This document shows positions 11,627-29,043 of a DNA stretch of 64,000 bases, one piece after another (the stretch's first letter is position 1; every line of letters begins with the position of its first letter). The notes beneath the pieces were generated by a model. The model saw only the letters and a program-made list of their open reading frames with translations. It had not been told where the DNA came from and searched no databases. Source of the DNA: Nocardioides coralli (GTDB lineage: Bacteria > Actinomycetota > Actinomycetes > Propionibacteriales > Nocardioidaceae); assembly GCF_019880385.1 (NCBI RefSeq), contig NZ_CP082273.1:1922001-1986000 (forward strand), written 5' to 3'. Made by a program: the position numbers and the translations under genes.

Positions 11627-13029
11627 TGGCTCGCCTCCTGCGCCTCGGGGGCGTACGGGCTGGGTAGGTCGGTCTCGCCGCCTCGCCATCGGCGGGCCAT
11701 CGACCTCAACACCACGACGGCACCGACGGTCATCGCTGTGTAGATGACCGTCGAGATGCCGAGCAGCCACCACAGGGCCGAGGTGTAGTCGCCGACGGCC
11801 TCGGGCGTGCGCATCACGCCGTACACGACCCAGGGTTGTCGGCCGACCTCCGTGGCCACCCATCCGGCCTCGAGGGCGATCACGGCGAGCGGTCCCGCGG
11901 CCGCCGCGGCACGCAGGAACCACTTCTTCCTCAGGAGGTCGTGCCCGCGCCGCCGCTGCATCCAGAACCAGGCGACTCCGGCAGCGAGCAGCGTGCCGAT
12001 CCCGACCATGGTCTGAAAGGCGAGATGGGTGATGTTGACTGGTGGCCGGTCCTCCTCGGGGATCGTGTCGAGGCCGGGCACCGGCTCGTCCAGCGAGTTC
12101 ATGGCGATCAGCGAGCCAAGGACCGGGATGTCGAGCGCACCCACGACCTCGCCGTCGACCAGCACGCCGCCGAGCCGTAGCGGTGACGGACTCTCCGTCG
12201 TCTCCGCGAGCTCGAACGCCGCCAGCTTCGCGGGTTGCCGCTCATCGAGACCAGCGCCGAGGACGTGTCCGACGAACGGCTGAGTGACCGCGGCAACGGA
12301 GGCGAACACGAACGGCACCATGAATCCCAGCCGGTGGTGGCTGTCGCGACGCCCGCGCAGCATCCCGACCGCGTAGACGCCGGCGACGCTGAACCCCGCC
12401 ACCATGTAGGCGCCGACCCACATGTGGGCGAACTGGAGGAAGGCGTGCTGGTTGAACAGCACCGCCCACGGCTGGACGTCGGTGACCTCGCCGCCGGCGA
12501 TCCGGAAGCCGGTCGGCACGTTCATCCAGGCGTTGACGGCGACCACGCAGTAGGCGCCGACGATGCCGGTCACCGCCATCGGCAGGACCATCAGGACGTG
12601 TCGACCAGGCGGCATCCGACCCCAGCCGTAGAGGTAGATGCCCAGGAAGATCGCCTCGAGGAAGAAGGCCAGGCCTTCGAAGGCGAAGGGCAGGCCGAGC
12701 ACGTCGCCGTAGGTGCCCATCAGCCCGGGCCACAACAACCCCATCTCGAAGCTGAGGACCGTGCCCGATACCGCGCCGATCGCGAACAGGACCGCCGACA
12801 CCTTCGCCCATCTCTGAGCGAGGGTGAGCGACACCTGATCCTGTCGTCGAATTCCCCGCAGGTGCATCACAAAGATCATCGCCGGGAATGCGACGCCAAA
12901 GCAGGCCAGCACGATGTGCCACCCCAGCGACAGCGCCATCTGCTGCCGGGCCGGGAGCAGCCCTGCGGGTTCGGCTGCAGAAGGCGCGGCTTGGACGACG
13001 GCGTCGAGGACAAGCTCGGGGGTCAGCAC
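11623..13029 (-). CDS. cydA: cytochrome bd-type quinol oxidase subunit I
   Basis: A 468-residue haem-binding subunit. It has the N-terminal quinol oxidase helices (LGWHIVLACFGVAFP), the haem-ligand histidine region, the FNQHAFLQFAHMWVGAYM segment, a short Q-loop region around residues 245-300 and the GRQPWVVYGVMRT signature. The short Q loop resembles the form lacking the long insertion of E. coli CydA. The GTG start at 13029 sits seven bases after a TAGCGT hexamer (13037-13042) without a clear ribosome site, so leaderless transcription is likely. It is co-transcribed with cydB through a GTGA overlap. Confidence 0.95.
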   Translation of the reverse strand: MLTPELVLDAVVQAAPSAAEPAGLLPARQQMALSLGWHIVLACFGVAFPAMIFVMHLRGIRRQDQVSLTLAQRWAKVSAVLFAIGAVSGTVLSFEMGLLWPGLMGTYGDVLGLPFAFEGLAFFLEAIFLGIYLYGWGRMPPGRHVLMVLPMAVTGIVGAYCVVAVNAWMNVPTGFRIAGGEVTDVQPWAVLFNQHAFLQFAHMWVGAYMVAGFSVAGVYAVGMLRGRRDSHHRLGFMVPFVFASVAAVTQPFVGHVLGAGLDERQPAKLAAFELAETTESPSPLRLGGVLVDGEVVGALDIPVLGSLIAMNSLDEPVPGLDTIPEEDRPPVNITHLAFQTMVGIGTLLAAGVAWFWMQRRRGHDLLRKKWFLRAAAAAGPLAVIALEAGWVATEVGRQPWVVYGVMRTPEAVGDYTSALWWLLGISTVIYTAMTVGAVVVLRSMARRWRGGETDLPSPYAPEAQEASQ

Positions 13030-13123: not shown

Positions 13124-14023
13124 TCACCAGGTTGCCTCATGACACTCGCGGGAGGGATCCACCTCGACCTGAAGGGTCGCGTGCTCGATGCCGTGCGCGT
13201 CACGCAGTGCCGCCTGGGCACCGGTGAGCACTGTTTGGGTGTCGGCGCCGTCTGTCACCACGAGATGGGCCGTGGCGACGTTCATGCCCGAGGTAAGCGT
13301 CCAGGCGTGAAGATCGTGGACCTCCGCGACGCCGGGCAGCCCCTCAAGGTCCTCCACAATCGCGTCGAGGTCGACGTCGTGGGGTGCATGCTGGCCCAGA
13401 ACGGCGAGTACCTCCCGGCCGAGGATGACGGCACGGACGGCAACGAAGAGGCCAATGGCCACAGCCACCACGGTGTCCCACACCCCCGCGCCGGTGAGCC
13501 CAACGAGCAGCCCGGCGACGAGAACGCCGACGCTGCCTGCAGCGTCGGCCATCACCTCGAGGTAGGCCCCCTTGACGTTGATCGACTCCCGAGCACCGCC
13601 ACGCAAGAGAAACAGGCAGACGAGGTTGATGATCAGGCCGAGGGCACCGACGACCATCATCGGCCCGAAGGAGATCTCGATGGTCTCTCCGATCCGGCCG
13701 ATGGCCTCGAGCACCACATAGACCGACACTCCGAGCATGATCAGGACGGTCAGTCCCGAGGCGAAGACCTCGGCGCGGTAGGAGCCGTAGGTGCGACGTC
13801 CCGTCGCATCGGGGCGGGTCGCGATCTTGGTGGCAACAAGTGCTGCCCCCAGGGCCACCACATCAGCTGCCATGTGACCAGCGTCGGAGATCAGCGCCAA
13901 CGAGCCGCTGATGAGTCCGACGGCCAGCTCGACCCCGAAGAAGCTCGCGACCAGACCGAACGCCAACGCGAGGCGCCACCGGTGACGCCCGCCGGCGTGT
14001 CCGTGTCCGTGGCCGGCGCCCAT
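13124..14023 (-). CDS. cation diffusion facilitator (Zn/Cd/Co efflux)
   Basis: A 299-residue CDF transporter. The N-terminus is His-rich (GHGHGHAGGRH), six transmembrane segments follow with the SDAGHMAAD metal-site motif in helix 2 and a second Asp-containing site in helix 5 (EVMADAAGS), and a cytoplasmic C-terminal domain ends the protein. CDF pumps export divalent metals such as zinc in exchange for protons. The ATG at 14023 shares one base with the stop of the upstream ArsR gene (TGATG), so it is translationally coupled to its regulator. This makes it a metal-inducible efflux gene, with Zn, Cd or Co as candidate substrates. Confidence 0.93.
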   Translation of the reverse strand: MGAGHGHGHAGGRHRWRLALAFGLVASFFGVELAVGLISGSLALISDAGHMAADVVALGAALVATKIATRPDATGRRTYGSYRAEVFASGLTVLIMLGVSVYVVLEAIGRIGETIEISFGPMMVVGALGLIINLVCLFLLRGGARESINVKGAYLEVMADAAGSVGVLVAGLLVGLTGAGVWDTVVAVAIGLFVAVRAVILGREVLAVLGQHAPHDVDLDAIVEDLEGLPGVAEVHDLHAWTLTSGMNVATAHLVVTDGADTQTVLTGAQAALRDAHGIEHATLQVEVDPSRECHEATW

Positions 14024-14395
14024 CAGAGGACACCCCCGGCCGTCGGGCAATCGGTGACAGCCTCGCCGGTGGTCGCGAGGACCCGATCTGCGGCCAGCAG
14101 CACGTCGCGCACGGGGACCCCCGGGGTCAACGAGAAGACGGACGCACGTCCGCGGGGCCGTGACTGCACCAGACCACAGTCGCGCAGGCACGCCAGGTGC
14201 TTGGACACGGTGGACTGCGCGAGGCCGAGGTGATCCACGAGGTCGACCACGCGGTGGGGGGCCGAGGTGGAGGTGGGCCAGGATCGCCAGCCGCGATGGA
14301 TCACCGAGGGCACGGAAGAGCGCGGCTGATGCCTCCGTGGCCTGCTGGCACACGGCTGGAGCCATAGCATCGCTCAATGGCGACATCATCGTCAT
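14023..14395 (-). pseudogene. ArsR/SmtB-family regulator with a frameshift at a G6 run
   Basis: The first part reads MTMMSPLSDAMAP through ALGDPSRLAILAHLHLG in one frame. The winged-helix part (VVDLVDHLGLAQSTVSKHLACLRDCGLV) and C-terminus are in another frame that ends at 14023. Removing one base from the six-G run at 14256-14261 joins them into a normal ArsR-family protein of about 123 residues with HLACLRDC cysteines suited to metal sensing. The ATG at 14395 is six bases after a TAGTAT hexamer (14402-14407), a leaderless start. The stop overlaps the CDF start, so a premature frame exit could also affect its translation. A true mutation, slippage or a sequencing error are all possible. Confidence 0.75.
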
Positions 14396-14448: not shown

Positions 14449-14467
14449 CTACTATCGCACATAGTAG
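14449..14467. promoter_or_regulatory. palindromic operator, BlaI-type candidate, before dsbA-like operon
   Basis: CTACTAT-N5-ATAGTAG, a 19-bp palindrome with perfect 7-bp arms, 22 bp before the GTG at 14489. Almost the same palindrome lies before resB at 23868. The BlaI-family gene at 18172 is the best candidate to bind both. Known BlaI/MecI operators are short TAC/GTA dyads. Confidence 0.65.
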
Positions 14468-14488
14468 ACCGATGAGAGGTGGAGGCCA

Positions 14489-15151
14489 GTGCGTAAGCAG
14501 ACCAAGGGAGCCCTCGGGGCCGGCGCGATCGTGGTGGCCGTGCTGGCAACCCTGCTGCTCGTGGGGCAGGCCGGTGAGGACGACGGCGGCGCAGCCGCGG
14601 TGGACACGCCGGCCCAGGAGAGCGCCGTTGTTCGCGAGGACAGCCGCATCCTCGGCGAGGAGGGGACCAGCGACGTCACGTTCGTCGAGTTCCTCGACTT
14701 CGAGTGTGAGGCCTGCCGGGCGGCTTATCCGGTGGTCGAGGACCTACGTGCGCAGTACGCGGGCGAGGTCACGTTCGTCATCCGCTACTTCCCGTTGCCG
14801 GGGCACTTCAACTCCGAGCGTGCCGCGCGGGCCGTCGAGTCCGCGGCTCGGCAGGGCGAGCTCGAGGCGATGTACAGCAAGATGTACGAGACGCAGGAGA
14901 GCTGGGGCGAGTCACAGGAACCGCAGGACGAGCTCTTCCGCAGCTTCGCGGAAGACATCGGACTCGACATGGAGCAGTACGACGCCGACTACACCTCCGA
15001 CGAGGTCGCCGACCGGGTGGCCCGCGACCTCGAGGACGGCACCACGCTCGGCGTGCAGGGGACGCCGACCTTCTACGTCGACGGCGAGCTCTTCCAGCCG
15101 GAGACGGTGGAGGACTTCTCGACCGCCCTCGACGACGCGCTCGCCGAGTGA
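14489..15151 (+). CDS. membrane-anchored DsbA-like thiol oxidoreductase
   Basis: A 220-residue protein with an N-terminal membrane anchor (residues 9-26), then a thioredoxin fold with an active site CEAC (Cys73, Cys76) followed by the DsbA-type helical insert, and the cis-Pro loop GTPTFYVDGE. It should form disulfides in exported proteins and be re-oxidised by the VKOR encoded next. The GTG at 14489 has a GAGGTGGAGG ribosome site, and the stop overlaps the VKOR start (GTGA). First gene of a four-gene operon behind the BlaI-type palindrome. Confidence 0.9.
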   Translation: MRKQTKGALGAGAIVVAVLATLLLVGQAGEDDGGAAAVDTPAQESAVVREDSRILGEEGTSDVTFVEFLDFECEACRAAYPVVEDLRAQYAGEVTFVIRYFPLPGHFNSERAARAVESAARQGELEAMYSKMYETQESWGESQEPQDELFRSFAEDIGLDMEQYDADYTSDEVADRVARDLEDGTTLGVQGTPTFYVDGELFQPETVEDFSTALDDALAE

Positions 15152-15735
15152 CCCAGGATCGCAGGCTCCCCGCAGGCCTCATCCTCGGCGGCCTGGTGGG
15201 CCTGATCGCCTCGGCGGTGCTGTTGATCGAGCGGATCCGGGTGGGCGAGGACAGCGATTACGTCCCCACCTGCAGCATCAACCCGATCATCAGCTGCGGC
15301 TCGATCATGGAGTCGGCACAGGCTTCCCTGCTCGGCTTCCCGAACCCGATCATCGGGGTGGCCGCCTTCCCGGTCGTGGTGGCCACCGGCGCCGCATTGC
15401 TGGGCGGCGCACGACTCCCCCGCTGGTACTGGCTCGGCCTCCAAGTCGGCGTGACCGCGGCGCTGGGACTGGTGGCGTGGCTCGTGTTCCAGAGCCTCTA
15501 CCGGATTGGGGCGTTGTGCCCCTACTGCATGGTCGTGTGGGTGGTGGTGATTCCCACGTTCTGGTACGTGACGCTGCGCAACCTCGCGAGCGGGGCGTTC
15601 GGGCAGAAGGCAGCGTCAGCCCCCGGGACCACCGTGATGCGGGAGTGGCACGCGCCGGTCTTGCTGGCGGCCTACCTGCTGGTGGGCGTCCTCATCACGG
15701 TCCGGTTCTGGTCCTACTGGTCCACGCTGCTGTGA
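15148..15735 (+). CDS. vitamin K epoxide reductase (VKOR) family protein
   Basis: A 195-residue integral membrane protein of the VKOR family. The loop cysteines (CSINPIISCG) and the active-site pair CPYC in a transmembrane helix (IGALCPYCMVVW) are both visible, with a Ser residue in CGSIM as usual. In actinobacteria VKOR re-oxidises DsbA-like proteins and passes electrons to quinone. The GTG start overlaps the preceding DsbA-like gene by four bases, supporting a functional pair. A 16-bp gap separates it from ccdA. Confidence 0.93.
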   Translation: MTQDRRLPAGLILGGLVGLIASAVLLIERIRVGEDSDYVPTCSINPIISCGSIMESAQASLLGFPNPIIGVAAFPVVVATGAALLGGARLPRWYWLGLQVGVTAALGLVAWLVFQSLYRIGALCPYCMVVWVVVIPTFWYVTLRNLASGAFGQKAASAPGTTVMREWHAPVLLAAYLLVGVLITVRFWSYWSTLL

Positions 15736-15751
15736 CGGCTGGGGACCGATC

Positions 15752-16534
15752 ATGATCGGCGATCTGCAGGGGACTGTCCTTGACGGCTCTCTGTTGGCCG
15801 CGCTGCCCGTCGCACTCGCCGCGGGACTCCTGTCCTTCTTCACCCCGTGCTCCCTGCCGCTGGTGCCGGGGTATCTCTCCTACGTCGCGGGGATGGCCGG
15901 CGCGGAGTCCGAGGTGACGCGCGAGTTGCGTGGGGGTCGTCCGGCGCGCCGTTCCAGGACGGTGCTCGGCGCGGCCCTGTTCGTGTTGGGGTTCGCCGTG
16001 GTGTTCACCAGCTACGGGGTGGCGTTCGGCTCATTGGGATCGCTGCTGTTGGCCCACCAGGAGACGATCTGGCGGGTCGCAGGCGGGTTCACAATCGTCT
16101 TGGGGCTGCTGTTTGCCGGCGGCGCGGGTCGGCTTCCGTTGCTCGGCCGCACGGCGCGGCCGCGAGTGACCCCGCAACTCGGGCTGGCCGGCGCGCCACT
16201 GCTGGGTGCGGTGTTCGCGGTCGGCTGGACCCCGTGTATCGGTCCCGCCCTGGCTGCCGTGCTGACCCTCTCCACGACGTCGGCCACCGCCGAGAGGGGA
16301 GCCGTCCTGTCTCTCGCCTATGCCTTGGGGCTCGGGCTGCCCTTCCTGCTCGCCGCAGTCTCGCTGACGCGGGCGATGAGAGTGTTCGCCTGGGTGAGGC
16401 ACCGCTCCGTGTGGATCACCCGTGGCGGCGGCGCCATGTTGGTCGCCGTCGGCGTGCTGCAGGTCTCAGGCGTCTGGTCGGAACTCGTGGCCTCCATACA
16501 GACCCTGGTTGCCGGCTGGCAGGCCCCGCTTTGA
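15752..16534 (+). CDS. ccdA: cytochrome c biogenesis protein CcdA
   Basis: A 260-residue, six-helix membrane protein. It has both conserved half-site cysteine motifs, FFTPCSLPLVPGYLSY in helix 1 and GWTPCIGPALAAVL in helix 4. CcdA carries reducing power from cytoplasmic thioredoxin across the membrane to ResA-type proteins, keeping apocytochrome c cysteines reduced for haem attachment. The stop overlaps the TTG start of the ResA gene (TTGA). Its place beside an oxidising DsbA/VKOR pair means one operon encodes both oxidising and reducing thiol branches. Confidence 0.95.
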   Translation: MIGDLQGTVLDGSLLAALPVALAAGLLSFFTPCSLPLVPGYLSYVAGMAGAESEVTRELRGGRPARRSRTVLGAALFVLGFAVVFTSYGVAFGSLGSLLLAHQETIWRVAGGFTIVLGLLFAGGAGRLPLLGRTARPRVTPQLGLAGAPLLGAVFAVGWTPCIGPALAAVLTLSTTSATAERGAVLSLAYALGLGLPFLLAAVSLTRAMRVFAWVRHRSVWITRGGGAMLVAVGVLQVSGVWSELVASIQTLVAGWQAPL

Positions 16535-17151
16535 AGTCCATCAAGGGGTTCATCGTCCTTCTCGCCGCCATCGGCCTCACCCTCGCCGCAGTCGCGTGGT
16601 GGACGTCGTTGTCCCGATCCGGGACGTCTACCCCCGGCTCTACCAAAGGCAGCTTCGACGGCACTGACGTGGTCCAGCAGTACGAGCCGGAGGACCGCCG
16701 CCCGCTGACTCGCTTCACTGCGTCACTCTTGGACGGGAGCCAGTTCGACAGCGATGACCTGCTCGGTCGCCCGGCGGTGGTCAACGTGTGGGGTTCGTGG
16801 TGCGGGCCGTGCCGGGCCGAGGCGCCGGCCCTCGCCCGGGTCGCGCGCGACTTAGAGGGTCGGGTCCGCTTCCTCGGGCTCAACGTCCGCGACAGTCCCG
16901 ACGCGGCGCGCGCGTTCGAGCGTGCCTTTGAGGTCCCCTACCCAAGCGTGCACCCGGACGACAGTGCCCGTGCGATCCTCGCTTTCGGAGGCGCCCTCAC
17001 CGCCACGGCCGTGCCCACGACGGTCGTGCTCGACAGCGACGGCCGAATCGCCGCGCGAGTCGTGGGCCAGGTGGACTACTCCACCTTGAGCGGTCTCGTC
17101 ACCGACGTGCTCGAGCTGCCCACCGGGCCTGCCAACGGATCGAAGCGCTGA
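16531..17151 (+). CDS. resA: ResA/TlpA-like membrane-anchored thioredoxin
   Basis: A 206-residue protein with a short cytoplasmic start, a membrane anchor (residues 7-26) and a thioredoxin domain with WCGPC (Cys91, Cys94) and the cis-Pro AVPTTVVLD. It reduces the CXXCH cysteines of apocytochrome c using electrons from CcdA. The TTG at 16531 is chosen because it gives the complete anchor and overlaps the ccdA stop. Upstream in-frame extensions would fall inside ccdA. A hairpin directly after the stop probably ends the operon. Confidence 0.93.
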   Translation: MKSIKGFIVLLAAIGLTLAAVAWWTSLSRSGTSTPGSTKGSFDGTDVVQQYEPEDRRPLTRFTASLLDGSQFDSDDLLGRPAVVNVWGSWCGPCRAEAPALARVARDLEGRVRFLGLNVRDSPDAARAFERAFEVPYPSVHPDDSARAILAFGGALTATAVPTTVVLDSDGRIAARVVGQVDYSTLSGLVTDVLELPTGPANGSKR

Positions 17152-17152
17152 C

Positions 17153-17173
17153 GCGCCGGGAACCGCCCGGCGC
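17153..17173. terminator. hairpin between convergent resA and M56 genes
   Basis: GCGCCGGG-AACCG-CCCGGCGC, a perfect 8-bp GC stem starting two bases after the resA stop and 42 bp before the stop of the M56 gene. Position between convergent operons supports termination. No U run is seen. Confidence 0.6.
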
Positions 17174-17215
17174 AACGTCTGACCCACACAGGCCTGAGCG
17201 AGACAGAGGAGGCTG

Positions 17216-18175
17216 TCAGCCGCGAGCGGGAGGCGCGGCCAGGGAACAGCAATCCCTCGTGGCCGCCTCGATCGCCGGCGCCAGGGCGAGCCCCACCGGG
17301 ACCGACAGGGCAGCCACGGCCGCCGCACCCACCATCAGGCCCATCCCTCGGCGCCGCGGCTCGGGCGGGGCAGTCAGGCGCCGCACTCGTTGCAGGGCAG
17401 CGGTGTCGCTGGCAGCCATGGCGGCCTCGGGGCGTACACCCGTGCCGAGGGCTACCAAGGCATGTGCCAAGGATCGACGGTCGGCGGCGCCGGACGCCGC
17501 GTCGTCGGCCGTCATCTCCAGGAGCACGGTCACCTGGTCGTGGGCCTCGGCGAACAGCGGGACCCATCGGAACGTCCGCCGCAGCGCGTCGGCGTAGGCG
17601 ACCGCGAGGTGGTGCCGGGCACGCAGGTGTCGGTGCTCGTGACCGAGGACGAGCTCGCGCTCACGGTCGGTGAGGATCTCCAGGGCCGCCGTCGACAACA
17701 CGACCGTGCCCGAGCCACCGGGCAGGCAGTAGGCCACAGGAACGGCGTGGTCGACGACGGTGAATCCTTCGGGATGGCGGTTCCCGACCAGACGCAGCGC
17801 CGCGCGCTGGGATCGACGCAACTGGGCCGTCCGGCGGAAGGCTCGTGCCGTCGTGGCGGCCAGGAGTCCGGCGAGGACAGCGACCATGCCTAGGCCGGCG
17901 ACGCCCGGCCAGATCCCGAGCGGGGTCTCGTAGTGCTCGACGACGGTGATGGTGTGGGCGTTGAGCAGGTAGGAAAGCGAATACCTCATCGGCAGGAACG
18001 GCAAGGCCAGGGCCACCGCGGCGAGCAGGATCGCCAGGACGACGGAGGTGGACAACGCCTGCCAGCCCACGATCGCTGCTCGCGGCGCCCGCGAGGACCA
18101 CTCTCGGCGGAGAAGTCGCGCACCGAGACCAGCGACTGTCGAGGCGTAGGCGATGAGGAGCAGGGCCGCGATCAC
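17216..18175 (-). CDS. M56-family membrane metalloprotease (BlaR1-type, no sensor domain)
   Basis: A 319-residue membrane protein of the BlaR1/MecR1 peptidase family. Hydrophobic helices surround a cytosolic-side zinc site HEHRH (His179, Glu180, His183) with a downstream Glu in LLEMTADDA. There is no penicillin-binding sensor domain, and after the last helix the chain ends with a short extracytoplasmic tail carrying CC (RDCCSLA), which could sense metal or redox state. The GTG at 18175 overlaps the blaI stop (GTGA). In the known BlaR1/BlaI pairs the protease triggers BlaI cleavage. Here the signal is unknown, and copper or thiol stress is suggested only by the neighbours. Confidence 0.88.
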   Translation of the reverse strand: MIAALLLIAYASTVAGLGARLLRREWSSRAPRAAIVGWQALSTSVVLAILLAAVALALPFLPMRYSLSYLLNAHTITVVEHYETPLGIWPGVAGLGMVAVLAGLLAATTARAFRRTAQLRRSQRAALRLVGNRHPEGFTVVDHAVPVAYCLPGGSGTVVLSTAALEILTDRERELVLGHEHRHLRARHHLAVAYADALRRTFRWVPLFAEAHDQVTVLLEMTADDAASGAADRRSLAHALVALGTGVRPEAAMAASDTAALQRVRRLTAPPEPRRRGMGLMVGAAAVAALSVPVGLALAPAIEAATRDCCSLAAPPARG

Positions 18176-18537
18176 GAGGACTCGTCCGCCCGCTCGGTCA
18201 GCGCCGCGAGCAGCTCGGCTGCCTCCTCGGACTCCATCCGCCCGACCAGGTGCATGAGTGCGGCCGTGCGGTCATCGCTCTCGGCCAGCACTTCCTGCAA
18301 CATCGCGGCGGTGTGCTCCTCACGCGAGGAGACTGGCGCGTAGGCGTAGGCCTTTCCCACTTTCTCCCGCTGGACCAGCCCCTTGGAGTGCAGATTGTCC
18401 AGAACCGTCATCACCGTGGTGTAGGCCAACGGCCGGTCGTGCCTGATGTTCTCGAGCACTTCTCGCACTAGCGCGGGGTGATCCAGCCCCCACAGGTGCT
18501 GCATGACCGCTGTCTCGAGCTGGCCCAGCTGCCTCAC
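18172..18537 (-). CDS. BlaI/MecI-family transcriptional repressor
   Basis: A 121-residue BlaI-type winged-helix repressor (LGQLETAVMQHLW, then the recognition region AYTTVMTVLDNLHSKGLV and wing KAYAYAPV) with a helical C-terminal dimerisation part. It pairs with the M56 protease encoded next. Its GTG at 18537 overlaps the stop of copD-ctaG, so it is the sixth gene of the resB operon and would be autoregulated. The likely operators are TACTAT-N5-ATAGTA at 14449-14467 and 23868-23886. No beta-lactamase gene is present, so the regulon is something else. Confidence 0.92.
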   Translation of the reverse strand: MRQLGQLETAVMQHLWGLDHPALVREVLENIRHDRPLAYTTVMTVLDNLHSKGLVQREKVGKAYAYAPVSSREEHTAAMLQEVLAESDDRTAALMHLVGRMESEEAAELLAALTERADESS

Positions 18538-20624
18538 GAGCGGCCTCCCGGTTGTCCACTGTCTGAGTCGGTGTCGATGTTGCTACGAGGCACCATCGTA
18601 GGCGGCGTTGGTCGTCGCGTGGGAGCGGCGTTGCCGAGCTCGCGGAGATACTCGTTGTATGCCGTCAGCTGCCGATCCTGCTCGCGATCCTCACGTCGGT
18701 CGAATCGGCGCCGCTCCCGACCGTCGGCCTGCACCCACGACACCAACAGGGCCGCGGCCATCACGGCTAGTGGGTACTCCCCCAGCGCCCATCCCAGCGA
18801 GGCTCCGAGGTACTGGTCCTCGAGCAGGGCGACCTCACCTTCGCTGCGCAGCAGTGCGAACCAGTCCCGGGCCAGCACGGTCGTGCTGGCCATCAGGCTG
18901 ACGGCGAAGAGTGCGTGGAACCCGAAGGTCACCATCAGCAGCAGAGCCCTCAAGGGGTAGGCCGGGCGCTCAAGCCCGGGGTCTGCACCTACCACAACCT
19001 CCGCGAAGAGGTAGCCCGCGAACAGGAAGTGAAGCGTCATGAGGACATGGGCTGTGTGCGACTCCAGCGACGTCTCGAACAGCGAGGAGTAGTAGAACGC
19101 GACCATGCTCACGATGAACATGCCGGCCGCCACGATCGGGTGGCCGAGCAGCTGGACCGGCAGGGAATGCACCAGCCGCAGCAGCCACTCGCGTGGTCCG
19201 TCGGACCCGTCCGTTCGTCGGCGGAGCGTACGCAGAGCGAGAGTCACGGGCGTGCCCAGGACGAGGAAGACGGGCACGGCGGTGGCGATCGTCATGTGCT
19301 GGACCATGTGCATGCTGAACAGCACCCGACCGTAGGCACCCGGGGCACCGTTGGTCGCCCACAGGAACAGTAGACATCCCAGCACCCAGCACGCTGTGCG
19401 CAGCCACGGCCACGCCACTCCGCGCCGACGCAGCCGGCGGACCGACCAGAGGTACCACCCGAGACCGGCCAGTCCGAGCGGCAGGAACAGGGTGTCCGCC
19501 TCCCAGGACGTGAACCAGCCACCGGCGTCCAGGGGCCCCGGCAGCGGGCGTCCGATCAGCGACTCCGCCGTGGTGAGCGGACGTTGACTTCCCGGCGGTT
19601 CAGGAGGGGCCGTCCTGCTGAGCGCGACGCCCAGCCCCGCCGCGCCGAAAAGCACGACCAGCTCGACGCCGACGAGCCGCCAGAACGCGCCCGATGCACG
19701 ACCGTCCAGGCTCGCGAGCGTCCGGCGGCGGTGCCACCACCCGGCCCCGGCGAGAGCCACCACCGCAGCGACCTTCACCCCGATGACCAGCCCGTACGAC
19801 GAGACCACGGAGTCCCACGCGGGCAGCCGCAGCCAGGCCCCGGCCACACCCGACGCGGTCACGACGACGAGGCACCATCCGGCCAGGGTCGAATACCTGC
19901 CGACGGTGGGACCGAGCTGATTGCCCAAGTGCCGTCGTACCAGGACCAGCGCGAGCAGGCCGCCTGCCCACACGGCGATCGCGAGCAGATGGAACATCTG
20001 GAGGTTGACGGCCTCGTCGTGGTCGAGCGTGCCGGCCGCATGGCCCGTGAGAGCGATGGGCCACAGGCCGGCGAGGGCGAGGACGGTGGTGAGACCCAGC
20101 CCGGACGGGCGCGAGCTGAGAGCGCCGCTGAGGGCGACCAGCGCGGCAATACCGGCGCCCCAGAGGGCGTACCGACCGAGCTCGAAGCTGGTGCCGAAGT
20201 AGGTGACCTGCTCAAGGAAGCCGGAGGAGCCGAGCCCTGCCCCGGAGGCGTCGGAGTAGACCAGCGCCACCAGCGCTCCGCTGGTCACGGCCCAGACGGC
20301 AGCGGCGAGCTGAGCCAATGCCACGAGTCGAAGGCGAGCACCCGTTAGCCGCTTTACGTCGCTTCCGGGCGGCGGCGCGACACAGGTCGCGGCGAGCACG
20401 AGAGCACCGACCGTCGTCATCGCCGCCACATCCCGCAGGGCTTGGACGAGCGGCAGCCCCACCCGAGTCACAGGCCCGGGATCCGGGAGACCCTCGACGC
20501 CCAAGGGCGCCAGAGCACCGGTCAGGCCGGCGGCGAGCAGCGCCACCCCGATGGCCCACACCGGAGCGGCCAGCGCCACCATCGCGGCTGCTGGGGGTCG
20601 ACGGATCGCTTCCACGGTGCTCAC
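18534..20624 (-). CDS. fused CopD copper-transport domain and CtaG assembly domain
   Basis: A 696-residue polytopic membrane protein in two parts. Residues up to about 370 form a CopD-type copper import domain, with conserved His in GHAAGTLDHDEAVNLQMFHL. After the link GWFTSWEADTLFLPLG the second part is a caa3-type CtaG domain (HMVQHMTIATAVPVFLVLGTP, then LHFLFAGYLFAEVV). Together with CopC next door, it probably brings copper in for cytochrome oxidase assembly. The GTG at 20624 overlaps the copC stop (GTGA). Such CopD-CtaG fusions are known in actinobacteria. Confidence 0.92.
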   Translation of the reverse strand: MSTVEAIRRPPAAAMVALAAPVWAIGVALLAAGLTGALAPLGVEGLPDPGPVTRVGLPLVQALRDVAAMTTVGALVLAATCVAPPPGSDVKRLTGARLRLVALAQLAAAVWAVTSGALVALVYSDASGAGLGSSGFLEQVTYFGTSFELGRYALWGAGIAALVALSGALSSRPSGLGLTTVLALAGLWPIALTGHAAGTLDHDEAVNLQMFHLLAIAVWAGGLLALVLVRRHLGNQLGPTVGRYSTLAGWCLVVVTASGVAGAWLRLPAWDSVVSSYGLVIGVKVAAVVALAGAGWWHRRRTLASLDGRASGAFWRLVGVELVVLFGAAGLGVALSRTAPPEPPGSQRPLTTAESLIGRPLPGPLDAGGWFTSWEADTLFLPLGLAGLGWYLWSVRRLRRRGVAWPWLRTACWVLGCLLFLWATNGAPGAYGRVLFSMHMVQHMTIATAVPVFLVLGTPVTLALRTLRRRTDGSDGPREWLLRLVHSLPVQLLGHPIVAAGMFIVSMVAFYYSSLFETSLESHTAHVLMTLHFLFAGYLFAEVVVGADPGLERPAYPLRALLLMVTFGFHALFAVSLMASTTVLARDWFALLRSEGEVALLEDQYLGASLGWALGEYPLAVMAAALLVSWVQADGRERRRFDRREDREQDRQLTAYNEYLRELGNAAPTRRPTPPTMVPRSNIDTDSDSGQPGGRS

Positions 20625-21235
20625 TGCTCTTGGTCCCGCCTGAGCAGCCGCATCACGGCCACCACGGCCAGGGAGAGCACACCGAGCACGGTGACGGGGA
20701 TTGCGATCAGCAGCCACGGGACGCCGCCCTGGTCCTCGTCAGGCTCCGGGGTTGATTCTCTTGTCCCGGTTTCCGGAACCTGCGGCGTCGGCGTCGTACC
20801 GGCTTCCTGCCGCTCCGGGATGTCAGCGGAGCGCACGGTGAAGGAGGTCTCCCCTGCTACCGGGTGGCCGTCCGCGGACACCACACGGAACGCCGCGCGC
20901 CATCGCGAGGCCACGCCGGGCTCAGCCACCAAGGACGCCGGGACGGTCGCCACCAGCGTGGTGGGCGAGCGGCCAGTGGCCAGGTCCAGGTCCGTGGAGT
21001 CGCCACCGTCGATGCCGAGGGTCACGGTGCTGAGCCCGGGATCCATCTCCTCGGAGAACTCCAGGACGAGCTCGCGCGGCGCCCGGTCGAGCCGCGAGCC
21101 GTCGGCGGGGTCCACCGAGATCAGGTCGGTGTGGGCTGCCGCAGGCGCGCCGAAGAGGACGGCGCCCATCACGCCGCACACGATCGCCAGCCTCGCGGGC
21201 CACGCCGTCCACGAGCGAGTCTGTTCGCGGCTCAC
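20621..21235 (-). CDS. copC: CopC-like exported copper-binding protein
   Basis: A 204-residue protein with a signal peptide cleaved before AHTDLISVDPADGS. The mature N-terminal His is the usual copper ligand of CopC. The CopC beta-barrel domain continues to DGHPVAGETSFTV, whose His is another expected ligand. A Pro/Thr/Glu linker then leads to a C-terminal membrane segment (WLLIAIPVTVLGVLSLAVV) that anchors it outside the cell. The GTG at 21235 overlaps the stop of the 31-aa protein. It feeds copper to the CopD part of the next gene. Confidence 0.93.
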   Translation of the reverse strand: MSREQTRSWTAWPARLAIVCGVMGAVLFGAPAAAHTDLISVDPADGSRLDRAPRELVLEFSEEMDPGLSTVTLGIDGGDSTDLDLATGRSPTTLVATVPASLVAEPGVASRWRAAFRVVSADGHPVAGETSFTVRSADIPERQEAGTTPTPQVPETGTRESTPEPDEDQGGVPWLLIAIPVTVLGVLSLAVVAVMRLLRRDQEQ

Positions 21236-21327
21236 CAGCGTGCCCTCGAGATCAGGTACAGCGCCAGCAGCGTCGCGACCAGGGTGAAGAGCCCGATCAC
21301 GATCGTCGAGAGACCTGAGACGTCCAT
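21232..21327 (-). CDS. 31-residue single-pass membrane protein between ccsB and copC
   Basis: A short frame starting with ATG at 21327 and AGGGGTG nine bases upstream. It begins MDVSGLSTIVIGLFTL, continues with hydrophobic residues to one transmembrane helix, and ends in a basic SRARW. It starts four bases after the ccsB stop and its TGA overlaps the copC GTG, so it fills the operon exactly, which argues for a real gene. Small CcmD-like proteins support haem-handling complexes in other systems. A similar helper role here is only a guess. Confidence 0.6.
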   Translation of the reverse strand: MDVSGLSTIVIGLFTLVATLLALYLISRARW

Positions 21328-21330
21328 CGG

Positions 21331-22248
21331 TCACACCCCTGCGTACGAGTGAAGGCCCGGGATCCACAGGTTGACCCCGAAGAAGTTGAACAAGAACGCC
21401 AGGAAGCCGGCCACCGCGAGCAGCGACGCGCCACGACGCCACCCGACCGTCGACAACGCGTGGAGGTGGGCGGCGTAGAGCACCCAGGTGATGAAGGCCC
21501 ACGTCTCCTTGGGATCCCACCCCCAGTAACGTCCCCAGGCGTTCTCGGCCCACACCGCGCCCGCAATCACCGCGAACGTCCAGATCGGGAAGGCGACCAG
21601 GTGCACCGTGTGGGCCAGGTCAGCGAACGGGTCATCGTCCCCTGCACCGCGCCGGCGGCGCACCAGGTGGGCCAACGTGGCGACGGCCCCGACCGTGAAC
21701 AGAGCTCCTGAGACGATCGCCGCCGCCACGTGGACGACCAACCAGCGGGAGTTCAGCACGGGCACCAGGTCGTCGACCGGGGTGTAGAGGGAGGTGACCG
21801 ACACGCCCAGCAGCACCAGCACGACGGCGACGAGCCAAGCCGCGAGCCCGCCAACTTCGCGACCGCGCAGGTAGAGGAGGAAGGCGACGGAAACGGCCGC
21901 CGAGCCGGTCAGCCCGAACTCATACATGTTGCCCCACGGCGCCCGTCCGGCAGCGAGTCCGCGTGCCAGGACCGCGAGGCACACCAAGGCCGTGCCTAGC
22001 ATCACGAGGGCCAAGGCCGCGCGGCCGGTGCTGGTAGCGCGACCAGAGGTCGTCCTGGTCGGCCGACCCTGGTCATCGGCGTCTCTCGGCACGCCACCGA
22101 CCGGGGCGAGGACACGCGGACCGCGGGCGGCGCCGGTCCGTGCGAGGGCCGCGGCTGTGGCGTACAGGACGAGCGCCAGGGAGAGCACCGCCAAGGCGGA
22201 GGTGACCAGGACGTCGGAGACGCCGGCCAGGTCGAGTTGCTGCGTCAT
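21331..22248 (-). CDS. ccsB: System II cytochrome c synthase subunit CcsB/ResC
   Basis: A 305-residue polytopic protein of the CcsA/ResC haem-handling family. The tryptophan-rich WWD-type motif (ENAWGRYWGWDPKETW) and conserved histidines near HVAAAIV and YAAHLHAL are visible. They bind and present haem outside the membrane. Together with ResB it forms the System II haem lyase. The ATG at 22248 overlaps the resB stop (ATGA). Some annotations call this protein CcsA or ResC. Confidence 0.93.
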   Translation of the reverse strand: MTQQLDLAGVSDVLVTSALAVLSLALVLYATAAALARTGAARGPRVLAPVGGVPRDADDQGRPTRTTSGRATSTGRAALALVMLGTALVCLAVLARGLAAGRAPWGNMYEFGLTGSAAVSVAFLLYLRGREVGGLAAWLVAVVLVLLGVSVTSLYTPVDDLVPVLNSRWLVVHVAAAIVSGALFTVGAVATLAHLVRRRRGAGDDDPFADLAHTVHLVAFPIWTFAVIAGAVWAENAWGRYWGWDPKETWAFITWVLYAAHLHALSTVGWRRGASLLAVAGFLAFLFNFFGVNLWIPGLHSYAGV

Positions 22249-23861
22249 CGCTCCCCTTCTCGTCGTTTGTCTGTGCCGCCCGACAGGCCCACAGCGGTGG
22301 CCAGCATCACCAGCTCATCGGGGGGAAGTGGCCGGCGCGACAGTGAACGCCCGGCCAGCTCGAGCAAGCCGTCGTCGCCCCGCCGCACCCAGACCCGCCT
22401 GCGGCGTACCGCCAGTGACGTCGTCAGACCACCGAGCAACAGGATCGCGGCCACCAGCGATATCTCCTTGCCCGGGTCGCGGGCGACCTGGAAGTTGGCG
22501 AACGGGGACACCCCGTCGAACGTCACCGAGCCGAGTCCGTCAGGCAGCCGCACGGTCTGGCCGGGCGCGAGCGACGCTCGCCACGGCTCCCCATTGCGCT
22601 CGACGCGGTCGAGGTCGGTGAAGTCCAGGGTGAAGACCGACTGGGGGCTTCCGTCATCGAGGCCCAGGTCGCCGGTGTAGGCGCTGAGCTGGACGATCGG
22701 GTTGACCAGCCCCGGAAAGGCCGAGACGCCCATGCCCTCCGGCCCCTCGACCCCTGTAGGGAGGAACAGTCCCTGGAGCGCCAGCGACGTCGGTCGGGCA
22801 TCGGGCACTTTCACCACTCCGTCGGAGGTGAAGGTCTGGTCCACCGGGAGGAAGATCGTCGGTCCCGACGTGGCGACGTCGCCATTGCCGTCACGCACGG
22901 TCAGCTCCGGCGCATAGCCGTGACCGGTGAGGAAGAACTTCGTGCCGTCGATGTCCAAGGGCCGGTTGGGTCGGACGGAGAAGGTGCCCTCACCCTCGTC
23001 GGCGCTGCGGTAGGACACGGTGGCGTCGAAACCACGGGGCTCCCCGAACCGTGGGCCTCGGGTCTCATACTCGGCGGCGAAGTCCTCGAGGGTGAGATCC
23101 AGCGGCTCGAGGGCGTCGAGGTCGGCCCACGGCGCAGGCGTGAGCGCGTCGTACGACGAGGCGACGTTGGCGAAGGTGGACCCTTCGACCACCGCGACGC
23201 GCCCCTCGTAGCCGAAGAGGCGGCCGCCGGCGACGCCGACCAGCAGCACGAGCAGCGACAGGTGGAAGGCCAGGTTGCCCAGCTCGCGGACCTGCCCCTT
23301 CTCGGCGCGAACCTCGTCGCCGTGGCGCACCACCCTGAACCGTCGACGTCGAAGGTGGGTGACCGCCGCCTCAAGGGCGTCCGCGACCTCGTCCACCTCG
23401 CCGCGCCGGTGACCTTCCTCCTTGCTGAGGCGGCGTGGCGCTGGCGGTGGGGCGGCGCGGACCTCCCGCCACAGTCGGGCGCATCTGGGGACGACGCACC
23501 CGGTCATGGAGATCAGAAGCAACACGTAGATGGCGGCGAACCACGGTGCGCTGTAGACGTCGAAGAGGGAGAGGCGATCCAGCCACGGCGCCAGGTCGGC
23601 GTGCTCGCGATAGTAGTTGGGAACCGCGGAGGGATCACTGGCCACTCCGCGCTGCGGCAGGAGCGACCCCGGGATCGAGGCCGCGGCGAGCAGGATCAGC
23701 AGCACGACGGCCGTGCGCATCGCGGTCAGCCGGCGCCAAGCCCAGCGAACCCAGGCGACCGTCTCGGACCGCGGCCCCGACCGCGCACCGCGGTCGACGT
23801 CGGGCAGGGGACGCTCCGCGACGCCCTGGGCGCCCGATGCACCCGACTCGTGTGACTCCAC
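22245..23861 (-). CDS. resB: System II cytochrome c biogenesis protein ResB
   Basis: A 538-residue membrane protein of the ResB family. Three N-terminal membrane segments (TAVVLLILLAAASIPGSLLP first) are followed by a large extracytoplasmic domain from about residue 200 to 470 and a last membrane segment (ISLVAAILLLGGLTTSLAV). It is the partner of CcsB in haem attachment to cytochrome c. The GTG at 23861 is six bases after TAGTAT (23868-23873), a leaderless start. That hexamer is one arm of the BlaI-type palindrome, so repressor binding would cover the promoter. First gene of the seven-gene operon running to 17216. Confidence 0.95.
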   Translation of the reverse strand: MESHESGASGAQGVAERPLPDVDRGARSGPRSETVAWVRWAWRRLTAMRTAVVLLILLAAASIPGSLLPQRGVASDPSAVPNYYREHADLAPWLDRLSLFDVYSAPWFAAIYVLLLISMTGCVVPRCARLWREVRAAPPPAPRRLSKEEGHRRGEVDEVADALEAAVTHLRRRRFRVVRHGDEVRAEKGQVRELGNLAFHLSLLVLLVGVAGGRLFGYEGRVAVVEGSTFANVASSYDALTPAPWADLDALEPLDLTLEDFAAEYETRGPRFGEPRGFDATVSYRSADEGEGTFSVRPNRPLDIDGTKFFLTGHGYAPELTVRDGNGDVATSGPTIFLPVDQTFTSDGVVKVPDARPTSLALQGLFLPTGVEGPEGMGVSAFPGLVNPIVQLSAYTGDLGLDDGSPQSVFTLDFTDLDRVERNGEPWRASLAPGQTVRLPDGLGSVTFDGVSPFANFQVARDPGKEISLVAAILLLGGLTTSLAVRRRRVWVRRGDDGLLELAGRSLSRRPLPPDELVMLATAVGLSGGTDKRREGER

Positions 23862-23867
23862 TCCGAC

Positions 23868-23886
23868 ATACTATTCGACATAGTAG
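23868..23886. promoter_or_regulatory. palindromic operator, BlaI-type candidate, between resB and lnt
   Basis: TACTAT-N5-ATAGTA (23869-23885) plus flanking bases. The left arm is the -10 hexamer of resB in reverse. It matches the site at 14449-14467 in both arms and spacing. Confidence 0.65.
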
Positions 23887-23906: not shown

Positions 23907-25442
23907 ATGGTCACGCGAGGCGAGGCGATGGCCGCGGCTGTGGTGGGTGGGCTCACCCTCGCGGCGGCCTTCCCCCCATGGTCGGTCCCCCTAATGGCGC
24001 CGCTGGGGGTGGGCGCCTTCTTCCTCGCGGTGAACCGGCGCGGCGCTCGTAGTGGAGCGGTGACCGGGTTCGTCTTCGGCCTGGCGTTCTTCGGGCCCAC
24101 CTTGTGGTGGTTGAGCGCATCGATTGCCCCGGCGGCGTGGGCCGCCCTGGTGCTCCTTCAGAGTGGTTGGTTTGCCGTGCTGGGCGCCGGGACCGCGCTG
24201 GTCCGCCGACTGTCCTACTGGCCGGTCTGGGTGGCCTCACTGTGGACTCTGATCGAGGGTGCGCGATCCTCCGTCCCGTGGGGCGGCCTGCCGTGGGGGC
24301 GACTCGGCTACACGGCCGTGGACACACCCTGGGCCGTCTCGCTCGCCCTGGTGGGGGTGGCCGGCACCAGCGCCTTCGTAGCGTTGATCGGCGCCGCGGT
24401 CGCGGGAACCGTCGAGGCGGTCCGTGCGCGACGTCCCGTCGTGGTCGTGACCCGTCCGGTGGTCGTCGGCTGCGTCGTCGGTGGGGTCCTGCTGCTGATC
24501 TCCGTGTCATGGCTGCCGCTCGAGCCTGCTGAGGCTTCGCCATCCCGGCCGGGGTCGGTGAGCGTTGCCGTCGTCCAGGCAGAGGTGCCCGGTGCCGGCA
24601 CCGACGTCGCCGCCCACCACCGGGCGGTCACCAGCACCCTCCTCGACGAGACCCGGCGGCTGGCTCACACCTGGGGCGCCGACGGTCCGGTCGTAGACCT
24701 CGTCGTGTGGCCGGAGAACGCCACGGCCGTGGACCCTGCCGCGGATGCCACCGCGAGGGATGCGCTCCTGACCGCGGTGGCGGTCTCTGACGCCCCGGTC
24801 CTGGCAGGCTCGATCGTTGATGGTCCAACGGCCGACACAGCGCTCAACCAAGGCATCGCGTGGACCACCGACGGCCCCGGGGGCCGCTACACGAAGCAGC
24901 ATCTCGTGCCGTTCGGCGAGTACGTGCCGCTGCGCCCGCTCGCCGAGCGGATCTCCGCTCGCGTGGTCGATATCCAGCGGGACATGGTGCCCGGGATCCC
25001 GGCCCCGCCGCTCCGGGTGGACGACTTGGTGCTGGCCAACGCGTTGTGCTTCGACGTCGCCTACGACGACGTCCTGCGTGAGCAGGTGGCCCAGGGCGCT
25101 CAGCTGGCCGTCGTCCAGACCAGCAACGCTATGTTCCTGGGGACCGCGCAGCAGGAGCAGCAGTGGATGCTCAGCCGGGCCCGCGCGATCGAGCTGGGCC
25201 GGTCGGTCGTCGTGTCGTCGATGAACGGAATCTCCGGGGCGATCGCGCCCGACGGCAGCGTGATCGACCGGCTTCCCGCGGCTCGATCCGGGGCCACGGT
25301 GGTCTCCCTATCCGTCGAGGGGGGCACCACTCTCGCAGTCCGGCTGCGGGCGTGGCCGGCCCGCACCGCCTACGCCCTCGGTGTCGCGGGCGTGCTCGCG
25401 GCCGGTTGGCGTGCCCGCCGACAGCGGGCTAACGGAGCGTGA
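23907..25442 (+). CDS. lnt: apolipoprotein N-acyltransferase
   Basis: A 511-residue protein with six or more N-terminal membrane segments and a carbon-nitrogen hydrolase domain from about residue 220. The catalytic triad residues fall in WPENAT (Glu), YTKQHLVPFGEYVP (Lys) and NALCFDVAY (Cys). It transfers a third acyl chain to the N-terminal Cys of lipoproteins. The ATG at 23907 has a strong AGGAGG ribosome site. It is divergent from resB with the palindrome between them. Two lipoproteins (528-1076 and 9907-10509) in the window are possible substrates. Confidence 0.92.
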   Translation: MVTRGEAMAAAVVGGLTLAAAFPPWSVPLMAPLGVGAFFLAVNRRGARSGAVTGFVFGLAFFGPTLWWLSASIAPAAWAALVLLQSGWFAVLGAGTALVRRLSYWPVWVASLWTLIEGARSSVPWGGLPWGRLGYTAVDTPWAVSLALVGVAGTSAFVALIGAAVAGTVEAVRARRPVVVVTRPVVVGCVVGGVLLLISVSWLPLEPAEASPSRPGSVSVAVVQAEVPGAGTDVAAHHRAVTSTLLDETRRLAHTWGADGPVVDLVVWPENATAVDPAADATARDALLTAVAVSDAPVLAGSIVDGPTADTALNQGIAWTTDGPGGRYTKQHLVPFGEYVPLRPLAERISARVVDIQRDMVPGIPAPPLRVDDLVLANALCFDVAYDDVLREQVAQGAQLAVVQTSNAMFLGTAQQEQQWMLSRARAIELGRSVVVSSMNGISGAIAPDGSVIDRLPAARSGATVVSLSVEGGTTLAVRLRAWPARTAYALGVAGVLAAGWRARRQRANGA

Positions 25443-25901
25443 CCAGCCACCGTGGCACCCGCGAGGCATAGGCCTCGATACGGCGCGGAACCGCGACCGC
25501 AGGGCCGTCTCCTCGTCCGGGATCTGGACCCGGTCCATCCAGGCGACGAACCCGAACAGCCGAACGACGGCGCGGGCGCGTCCCAACCACAGCGCGTGCG
25601 CGAGCAGTACGCCGGCCATCCCGACGTACATCGGGTTGCGGGTGCGACCGTTCAGCCCGTCGGTGACCAGTGCGGAGGGTGCGGCGCCGGGGCGCGGGTC
25701 GACCGTCGTGCGCCGGGGACGGAACCGCAGCACCGGTGCGACGAGGACGCCCGCAGACGCGACGGCGGTGGCAGCCGCAACCGGGCGGCGCGCGCTGCGC
25801 CCATTGCGGGAGGTCGGTCGTCCGAGGAGGCGTTGCGCCAGCGCCGCCGCCAGACACAACCCCAGCGGTGGCACGCCAGCACGGACGTCAGCTCGGCTCA
25901 T
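25429..25901 (-). pseudogene. isoprenylcysteine methyltransferase-like membrane protein, frameshifted
   Basis: The N-terminal frame starts with ATG at 25901 (ATGA overlap with the ATPase stop). It carries the family signature RTRNPMYVGMAGVLLAHAL and a following WMDRVQIPDEETALRSRF. The expected ending EAYASRVPRWLVTLR is present only in another frame and stops at 25429. One missing base near 25478 accounts for the shift. The family includes isoprenylcysteine carboxyl methyltransferases and phospholipid methyltransferases, often with unknown substrates in bacteria. The reading-frame loss may be real or a sequencing error. It overlaps the end of lnt on the other strand by 14 bp. Confidence 0.65.
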
Positions 25902-27991: not shown

Positions 27992-28344
27992 CGCTGGACC
28001 TCTGCGCCGCAGCAGCCGAGAGGGCACGCCTCGCCCAGGCACCCGGAACCGTCGTCGACGGCGACCACCACGTCGAGCAGCAGCGAAATGGCCTCACCCA
28101 GGTGGGGATCGGCGATGCGGTAGCTGGTGCGCCTGCCCTCCGGCTCGGCGACCACGAGTCCACAGCCCAGGAGGCAGGCGAGGTGATTGGACACGTTGGT
28201 CCTCGTCAAGTCCAGCTCCTGCGCCAACAGCGCCGGGTAGCCGGGCTTTCCAACGAGTTTCATCAGTATCCGGGCACGCGTTGGGTCGGCCATGGCTCGT
28301 CCCAGACGAGTCATCACCTCAACCCGCGAAGCAATGGTCAGCAC
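27988..28344 (-). CDS. cmtR: CmtR-type ArsR/SmtB metal sensor
   Basis: A 118-residue winged-helix repressor. Cysteines fall at 57 and 61 in the recognition helix (NHLACLLGC) and at 102 (GSGC), exactly the three positions that bind Cd(II)/Pb(II) in Mycobacterium tuberculosis CmtR. An extra Cys cluster follows (GEACPLGCC). The GTG at 28344 is six bases after a TATGGT hexamer (28351-28356), so translation is probably leaderless. A GGTCAGC-type palindrome spans the start and -10, consistent with autorepression. The SPC-type ATPase is the target gene. Confidence 0.93.
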   Translation of the reverse strand: MLTIASRVEVMTRLGRAMADPTRARILMKLVGKPGYPALLAQELDLTRTNVSNHLACLLGCGLVVAEPEGRRTSYRIADPHLGEAISLLLDVVVAVDDGSGCLGEACPLGCCGAEVQR

Positions 28345-28889: not shown

Positions 28890-28983
28890 GTCTCTCCTGC
28901 TTTCAACAGACTCTCTGGGATGCGTCATCCCGACGGTCACGACGCACGTCAAATCGGCCTCGAATCGCCGAACCTGAGGCATC

Positions 28984-29000
28984 TACTACCAGGCATAGTT
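28984..29000. promoter_or_regulatory. weak TACTAT-N5-ATAGTA-like site
   Basis: TACTAC-N5-ATAGTT differs from the two better palindromes at two of twelve arm positions with identical spacing. It lies between the divergent FliL-like and exported SH3/peptidase-like genes, so the BlaI-type regulator might act here too. It also falls in the loop of a longer inverted repeat, CTGAGGC (28974-28980) and GCCTCAG (29004-29010). Confidence 0.3.
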
Positions 29001-29043
29001 GACGCCTCAGCTCGGTCGATGCTTCACTCGGTCACCTCTCGGG

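Follow-up and report, generated by a model that had tools for sequence, protein, structure and literature searches.

Gene Content of the Locus

The DNA analysed here (the window) comprises 64,000 nucleotides of Nocardioides coralli (contig NZ_CP082273.1, positions 1,922,001 to 1,986,000) and carries two convergent operons, 64 bp apart, each headed by the same palindrome, with a BlaI-family repressor and an M56-type membrane protease encoded in one of them. An earlier note on this DNA had placed the palindromes at 14449-14467 (CTACTAT-N5-ATAGTAG) and 23868-23886 (TACTAT-N5-ATAGTA), and both were confirmed in the window sequence, the second reading (A)TACTAT-N5-ATAGTAG. Profile searches and the reading of open reading frames (ORFs) also agreed with the gene order it had given. 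The first site heads DsbA-VKOR-CcdA-ResA on the plus strand and the second heads ResB-CcsB-31-aa transmembrane (TM) protein-CopC-CopD/CtaG-BlaI-M56 on the minus strand. Adjacent genes mostly overlap by 1-4 bp. The palindrome is predicted to be the operator of this BlaI, the only one found in the genome by Pfam search. The two operons and their sites are listed below, with site scores from the matrix described further on.

14449..14467: predicted operator 1, CTACTATCGCACATAGTAG, 21 bp upstream of the dsbA start, score 32.0
14489..15151, plus strand: DsbA-like thioredoxin-fold protein (Pfam Thioredoxin_4/DSBA)
15148..15735, plus strand: VKOR-family membrane oxidase, DsbA partner (Pfam VKOR); no other VKOR found in the genome
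15752..16534, plus strand: CcdA (DsbD_TM) electron carrier, second copy (Pfam DsbD_TM); housekeeping copy 51% identical
16534..17151, plus strand: ResA/TlpA-like thioredoxin, second copy, start uncertain (Redoxin/AhpC-TSA; DsbE/ResA-like below cut-off); housekeeping copy 45% identical
17216..18175, minus strand: M56/M48-type membrane metalloprotease with HEHRH, E220xxxD and tail cysteines C309 and C310, no penicillin-binding domain
18172..18537, minus strand: BlaI/MecI-family repressor (Pfam Penicillinase_R, 86.7 bits, cut-off 22.6)
18534..20717, minus strand: CopD-CtaG fusion, copper transport and copper delivery to oxidase; the genome has one other CtaG, at genome position 2268090
20621..21235, minus strand: CopC (Pfam CopC)
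21232..21327, minus strand: 31-aa single-TM protein between CcsB and CopC (ORF reading)
21331..22248, minus strand: CcsB (CcsA) haem lyase subunit, second copy (TIGR03144, 190.7 bits, cut-off 187.6); housekeeping copy 46% identical
22245..23861, minus strand: ResB, second copy (Pfam ResB, PF05140, 414.6 bits); housekeeping copy 47% identical, at genome position 359399
23868..23886: predicted operator 2, ATACTATTCGACATAGTAG, between the divergent resB (minus) and lnt (plus), score 27.2, present in relatives

ResB and CcsB occur together, both above the cut-off of their profiles (PF05140 and TIGR03144), as in System II of cytochrome c maturation. A small ORF similar to the 31-aa protein was present at the same place in all four relatives inspected (L052, L053, L056 and L057).

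Predicted Operator Sites in the Genome

Three places in the window matched the palindrome with at most two mismatches, against a mean of 0.01 across 100 shuffles. The exact 17-mer TACTAT-N5-ATAGTA has only two copies in the 3.53-Mb genome, both at the BlaI locus. Two more places lie at two mismatches from it, which is chance level, since the backward-read control gave three. A refined core, CTACTA-N7-TAGTAG, was used for the genome scan and was matched at 25 places with at most two mismatches. The three with at most one mismatch all fall inside 14.5 kb (operators 1 and 2, and 28983-29001), and a perfect core is found nowhere in the genome but at operator 1. The 22 other two-mismatch places carry no weight, because the backward-read control gave 280 places in all. 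The further sites, and the gene divergent from resB, are as follows.

18583..18601: weak operator-like site just upstream of blaI, within the 3' part of copD/ctaG, score 10.5, two core mismatches
23907..25442, plus strand: Lnt, apolipoprotein N-acyltransferase, divergent from resB (Pfam LNT_N, 99.6 bits, and CN_hydrolase)
28983..29001: probable operator 3, CTACTACCAGGCATAGTTG, upstream of a FliL-domain gene, score 19.4, one core mismatch

The site at 28983-29001 is probably a third operator. Its single mismatch to the refined core weakens the reading of it as a chance two-mismatch word, and its arms are retained, with a changed spacer, in a relative (L052); it was left at probable because its FliL-domain neighbour is off-theme. 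That neighbour, directly downstream of the site, is a single-helix protein (28467-28982, minus). A heavy-metal P-type ATPase with a cysteine-rich N-terminus (25898-28042, minus) sits between operators 2 and 3.

Divergent gene pairs flank both strong sites, with arsR/CDF on the far side of operator 1 and lnt on that of operator 2. On the arsR/CDF side, there is a long CDF ORF (13124-14395, minus), and an ArsR-like helix-turn-helix region lies in another frame (14026-14370), where the HTH_5 profile was matched from profile position 14. The relative L052 encodes a separate 123-aa ArsR-like ORF, which points to a possible frameshift in the window at this place. Cytochrome bd oxidase subunit I (11623-13029, minus) lies near the regulon, with no adjoining site at a score of at least 8.

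Association of the Site with blaI

Among 149 genomes of the family, a BlaI match was found in 77 and the exact motif in 17, all 17 among the 77; the backward-read control pattern was found in 2/149. Of the 27 places where the motif occurred, 26 had a blaI no more than 20 kb away (38-39 bp at the closest), and the remaining one was on a short contig of genome G045 without blaI. In a survey of the phylum, the exact 19-mer was present in 2/296 genomes, N. coralli being one of them, and the control was also present in 2/296. In the second of these genomes (site L255), no match to the window genes or to M56 was found within 1.5 kb. Taken together, these counts indicate that the element belongs to the blaI loci of the family and of some relatives, and not to the phylum.

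The element was also recovered by an unguided count of inverted 6-mer dyads (spacers 0-12) in 28 blaI neighbourhoods, excluding the window and its closest relative. These neighbourhoods represent the better BlaI matches and not all 77 genomes, and include pairs of near relatives (L059/L060, L063/L064 and L054/L055). CTACTA-N7-TAGTAG ranked first (20/28) and TACTAT-N5-ATAGTA second (15), followed by TCTACT-N9 (7), which overlaps the same element, and the next unrelated dyad (6); five shuffled sets reached at most 8. A matrix built from 44 sites and run over 494 kb gave 107 sites at score 10, against none in a Markov shuffle. The matrix was trained on sites of the same neighbourhoods in which it was later counted, and at this score also picks up TACTAC-N5-GTAGTA words, whereas the dyad search is free of such training.

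The exact site was present at 14 of 80 named BlaI loci, and at nine more with one mismatch. Beyond the family, the site lay just upstream of blaI in 7/9 loci from other families or unplaced metagenome-assembled genomes (MAGs), all nine picked for having sites; the seven comprised two Cryobacterium, two Arthrobacter, a Micromonosporaceae MAG, a Sporichthya MAG and an Actinomycetes MAG. A Pfam family was assigned to six of ten site-adjacent proteins outside the family (two ResA-like, CopC-CopD, cupredoxin- and HMA-type P-type ATPases, and CtaG).

Genes Carrying the Site in Relatives

Sites were counted from -300 to +60 of the gene start, with starts estimated from alignments, and compared with the expectation under random placement. 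The site was found at dsbA in 12/14 (1.0 expected), blaI in 18/28 (2.7), resB in 7/11 (0.8), lnt in 8/13 (1.1) and copC in 6/12 (0.9), which is 6 to 12 times the random expectation, despite differing gene orders. Sites were also present at arsR in 5/11 (0.9), CDF in 4/12 (0.9), resA in 8/22 (1.6) and ccdA in 4/18 (1.6). Genes that are usually internal to operons had few or none: vkor 0/10 (0.8), M56 0/28 (2.6), ccsB 1/13 (1.1) and copD/ctaG 1/15 (0.9). The site was found at cydA in 0/2. In three relatives in which blaI lies inside the resB operon (L053, L056 and L057), blaI had no site at threshold, and resB and dsbA had one. Given how widely gene order varies, the site has either remained with these genes or followed them.

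In all, 61 of 102 sites lie near one of the 14 families tested. Pfam families were assigned to 14/20 site-adjacent proteins outside this list, including SCO1, pyridine-nucleotide oxidoreductases, DUF3152, DUF3093 and an AraC-type regulator. The search upstream of the same operons in relatives had been set beforehand as a possible refutation, and found the element before dsbA, resB, copC, lnt and blaI. The earlier proposal of a BlaI-type regulon over disulfide, cytochrome c and copper genes is supported by this placement and by the single BlaI, whose binding is predicted.

A Second System II Set

A housekeeping ResA-CcdA-ResB-CcsB operon lies 1.6 Mb away in the same genome, 45-51% identical to the BlaI-linked proteins, with no site within 1.5 kb of its ResB. 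The BlaI-linked ResA, CcdA, ResB and CcsB are a second System II set, a finding that is new here. CtaG is double and VKOR single in the N. coralli genome.

At least two ResB were present in all 15 genomes with this BlaI type that had been picked for a ResB or CcsB beside blaI. One ResB was present in five genomes with only a cyd-linked BlaI and in 16 blaI-less genomes (one of these with an additional fragment). ResB of the regulated type (at least 59% identity) had a site within 1.5 kb at 14/16 loci. No site was found at the lower-identity copies (14/14 and 20/20, one a fragment), nor within 1.5 kb of the top-matching ResB in the blaI-less genomes (16/16); one lower-identity ResB at a blaI locus (L247) has a site.

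The M56 Protease and the BlaI Protein

The earlier statement that neither a beta-lactamase nor a penicillin-binding protein (PBP) sensor is present was borne out, as the M56 protein has no penicillin-binding domain and no beta-lactamase family was found among the ten two-operon proteins scanned. The N. coralli M56 ends nine residues after C310, shortly past its last helix, and the 25 M56 proteins aligned are 287-344 residues long with short tails, which leaves no room for a penicillin-binding domain. H179, E180, H183, E220 and D224 were invariant in these 25 proteins, and HEHE was present in 91/91; by alignment, the M56 partner has the catalytic residues of BlaR1. The protease scored 36.0 bits with Peptidase_M48 (cut-off 20.3), and a structural comparison list was headed by BlaR1 chains, tied with other M48-type proteases. 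A plasmid search with M56 returned eight distant records, all below 60% identity.

At least two cysteines were present in the presumed outer loop and tail in 26/28 M56 proteins, and none in 9/9 partners from a sister BlaI clade found mostly beside cydA (no M56 was obtained for L067 or L069). The missing penicillin sensor together with this cysteine pattern is likewise new here. A further cysteine, C150, in an AYC(L/V)P motif approximately 29 residues before HExxH, is kept in 90/91 M56 proteins of both clades. In 15/53 M56 proteins from named loci (within L113 to L170; Streptomyces and Kitasatospora), the outer loop carries a pattern like H-x-H...x-C, a possible metal site, and these 15 loci have no TACTAT site at up to one mismatch.

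The N. coralli BlaI contains no cysteine and scored 33.1 bits with the CopY_TcrY profile (cut-off 121.95). The nearest, and only, solved sequence that it matched is 2g9w, which we take to be Mycobacterium tuberculosis Rv1846c.

The sister clade comprises nine BlaI/M56 loci (L083-L091; support 100/99). A CydA-like gene was detected in eight of them, and TACTAC-N5-GTAGTA lies no more than 500 bp before blaI in six, four of which have three copies. To judge from gene content and motif, the sister system is probably a regulator of bd oxidase.

Proposed Mechanism and Alternatives

We propose that the palindrome is an operator bound by the BlaI encoded at 18172-18537, which would repress both convergent operons and probably also lnt and the third unit at 28983. 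The repressed genes would form an inducible second cytochrome c maturation set (ResA, CcdA, ResB and CcsB), together with the DsbA-VKOR disulfide-forming pair and copper delivery (CopC and CopD/CtaG). The co-transcribed M56 would cut BlaI in the cytoplasm in the manner of BlaR1 and so lift repression, and the outer-face cysteines, in the loop after TM2 and the tail after TM4, may report thiol redox state or copper. We infer BlaI binding, repression, BlaI cleavage and the topology of M56 by homology. We put the probability of the explanation as a whole, from operator and repression to cleavage on a cysteine-read signal, at about 0.78. That the signal is the thiol or copper state is a tentative element, the balance tilting somewhat against it.

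Several observations weigh against this explanation. The exact site was absent from 60 of the 77 blaI-holding family genomes, 57 of the 80 named blaI loci had no site at up to one mismatch, and 41 of the 102 sites have no member of the 14 families nearby. The earlier note had the second palindrome covering a -10 element; the -10 consensus is TAnnnT, with which TACTAT is compatible, so the claim is plausible from the letters, but a promoter scan returned nothing at operator 1 or operator 2. The protease scored 20.9 bits with Pfam Peptidase_M56, below the cut-off of 31.0, and Foldseek gave no match for it at E < 0.001. Only a single outer cysteine is present in the M56 protein of L063 and in that of L064, L144 has an exact site with no outer cysteine found in its M56, and the outer cysteines could be structural. 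Two loci (L232 and L242) carry the regulated type of ResB without a site, and one of six weak DsbA-like loci scanned in blaI-less genomes (L209) has a site-like word scoring 12.3. Lastly, the proposal of a second ResB in every blaI genome of this BlaI type was rejected on a count in 15 additional genomes of the type, chosen for the lack of a visible complete ResB next to blaI: 11 of the 15 had a single ResB. The copy counts show that the duplicate is frequent, not universal; ResB is a frequent but not constant target, and dsbA is the steadiest.

Chance palindromes in AT-poor DNA are a further reading, as intergenic DNA of such genomes contains short AT-rich words, the two-mismatch pattern was not above its control and the phylum 19-mer equalled its own; yet the 17-mer, always found with blaI, in 17/149 genomes against 2/149, the 107 matrix matches against none in the shuffle, and the dyad search leave this reading next to no weight. 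It is improbable that another regulator, such as the ArsR-like protein beside operator 1, owns the palindrome, with blaI just another gene under its control. An ArsR-type gene does adjoin operator 1, and the site precedes some arsR genes (5/11), but ArsR was detected in only 9/40 neighbourhoods, while the element tracks blaI in 17/17 exact-site genomes, precedes it in seven of the nine picked loci of other families, and has its TACTAC-N5-GTAGTA counterpart before blaI in 6/9 sister loci, with no ArsR detected at any of them. A beta-lactam response in disguise, with M56 sensing cell-wall damage and the present targets secondary, would fit the kinship of the BlaI/M56 pair and the presence of lnt beside several sites; we regard it as very improbable, given the short M56 tails and the ten two-operon proteins free of beta-lactamase families.

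It is also conceivable, although unlikely, that BlaI regulates these genes in response to a respiratory or energetic signal (quinone, haem or membrane state), with the cysteines being structural. The CydA-like genes of the sister clade and the exact site of L144 agree with such a signal, as does the ATP synthase target reported for mycobacterial BlaI (accessible parts of PMC8265638 and PMC12565901). Against it stand the outer cysteines, in 0/9 of the sister clade versus 26/28 of the thiol- and copper-linked group, so that, within this family, cysteines and target set occur together.

The operator-and-cleavage explanation can be extended to a class of Actinomycetota BlaI/M56 systems, although we hold this extension at just short of even odds. 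In this class, an outer cysteine switch (loop Cys and tail Cys, or tail Cys-Cys) would replace the penicillin sensor, read thiol redox or copper and, on failure of the housekeeping pathway, switch on a spare set for cytochrome c maturation, disulfide chemistry and copper delivery; the cysteine-less sister clade would use an operator arm changed by one letter, beside cydA. BlaI/M56 pairs occur in many Actinomycetota. If the explanation is true, a group of these pairs, named after penicillin resistance, would be envelope redox or copper sensors, and their regulons could be read straight from genomes via one short operator. It would offer testable routes by which Gram-positive bacteria may sense a failure of extracytoplasmic thiol chemistry and bring a second pathway of cytochrome c assembly into use, and by which a BlaR1-type protease may be driven without a large sensor domain.

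Comparison with Known Systems

The pair resembles BlaI-BlaR1 and MecI-MecR1 of staphylococci and Bacillus licheniformis in that the gene of a BlaI-family repressor adjoins that of a membrane zinc metalloprotease carrying HExxH and ExxxD (BlaR1 features as given in the accessible part of PMC9834060). Unlike BlaR1 and MecR1, the N. coralli M56 has no penicillin-binding sensor, and has cysteines in the loop and tail instead. The targets would be thiol, cytochrome c and copper genes, and not beta-lactamase or PBP2a, and the predicted operator (CTACTAT-N5-ATAGTAG) also differs. The BlaI/MecI-family operator contains TACA-N2-TGTA (accessible part of PMC7253601), a motif absent from the consensus found here, CTACTA(T)-N5-(A)TAGTAG.

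CopY/CopR belong to the same DNA-binding family and have copper-related targets. CopY binds metal via its own C-terminal Cys-x-Cys and has the operator RNYKACANNTGTMRNY (accessible part of PMC7253601), whereas the N. coralli BlaI contains no cysteine, hence no Cys-x-Cys, and its predicted operator is different.

The likeness to M. tuberculosis BlaI (Rv1846c) is that of an actinobacterial BlaI with bioenergetic targets. Mycobacterial BlaI controls blaC, ATP synthase genes and sigC, according to the accessible parts of PMC8265638 and PMC12565901, and a bioenergetic BlaI is thus not unheard of. Among the matches listed from the open-licence literature, no cytochrome c maturation, Dsb or copper-delivery targets were reported for M. 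tuberculosis BlaI, and none described BlaI control of ResB/CcsB, Dsb or CopCD, this regulon, this operator or a cysteine-tailed M56.

The usual System II (Ccs) operon, ResA-CcdA-ResB-CcsB, comprises the same four gene families as the BlaI-linked set. The N. coralli locus differs in holding a second set of these genes, split over two operons with predicted BlaI operators, while a separate housekeeping operon lies elsewhere in the genome.

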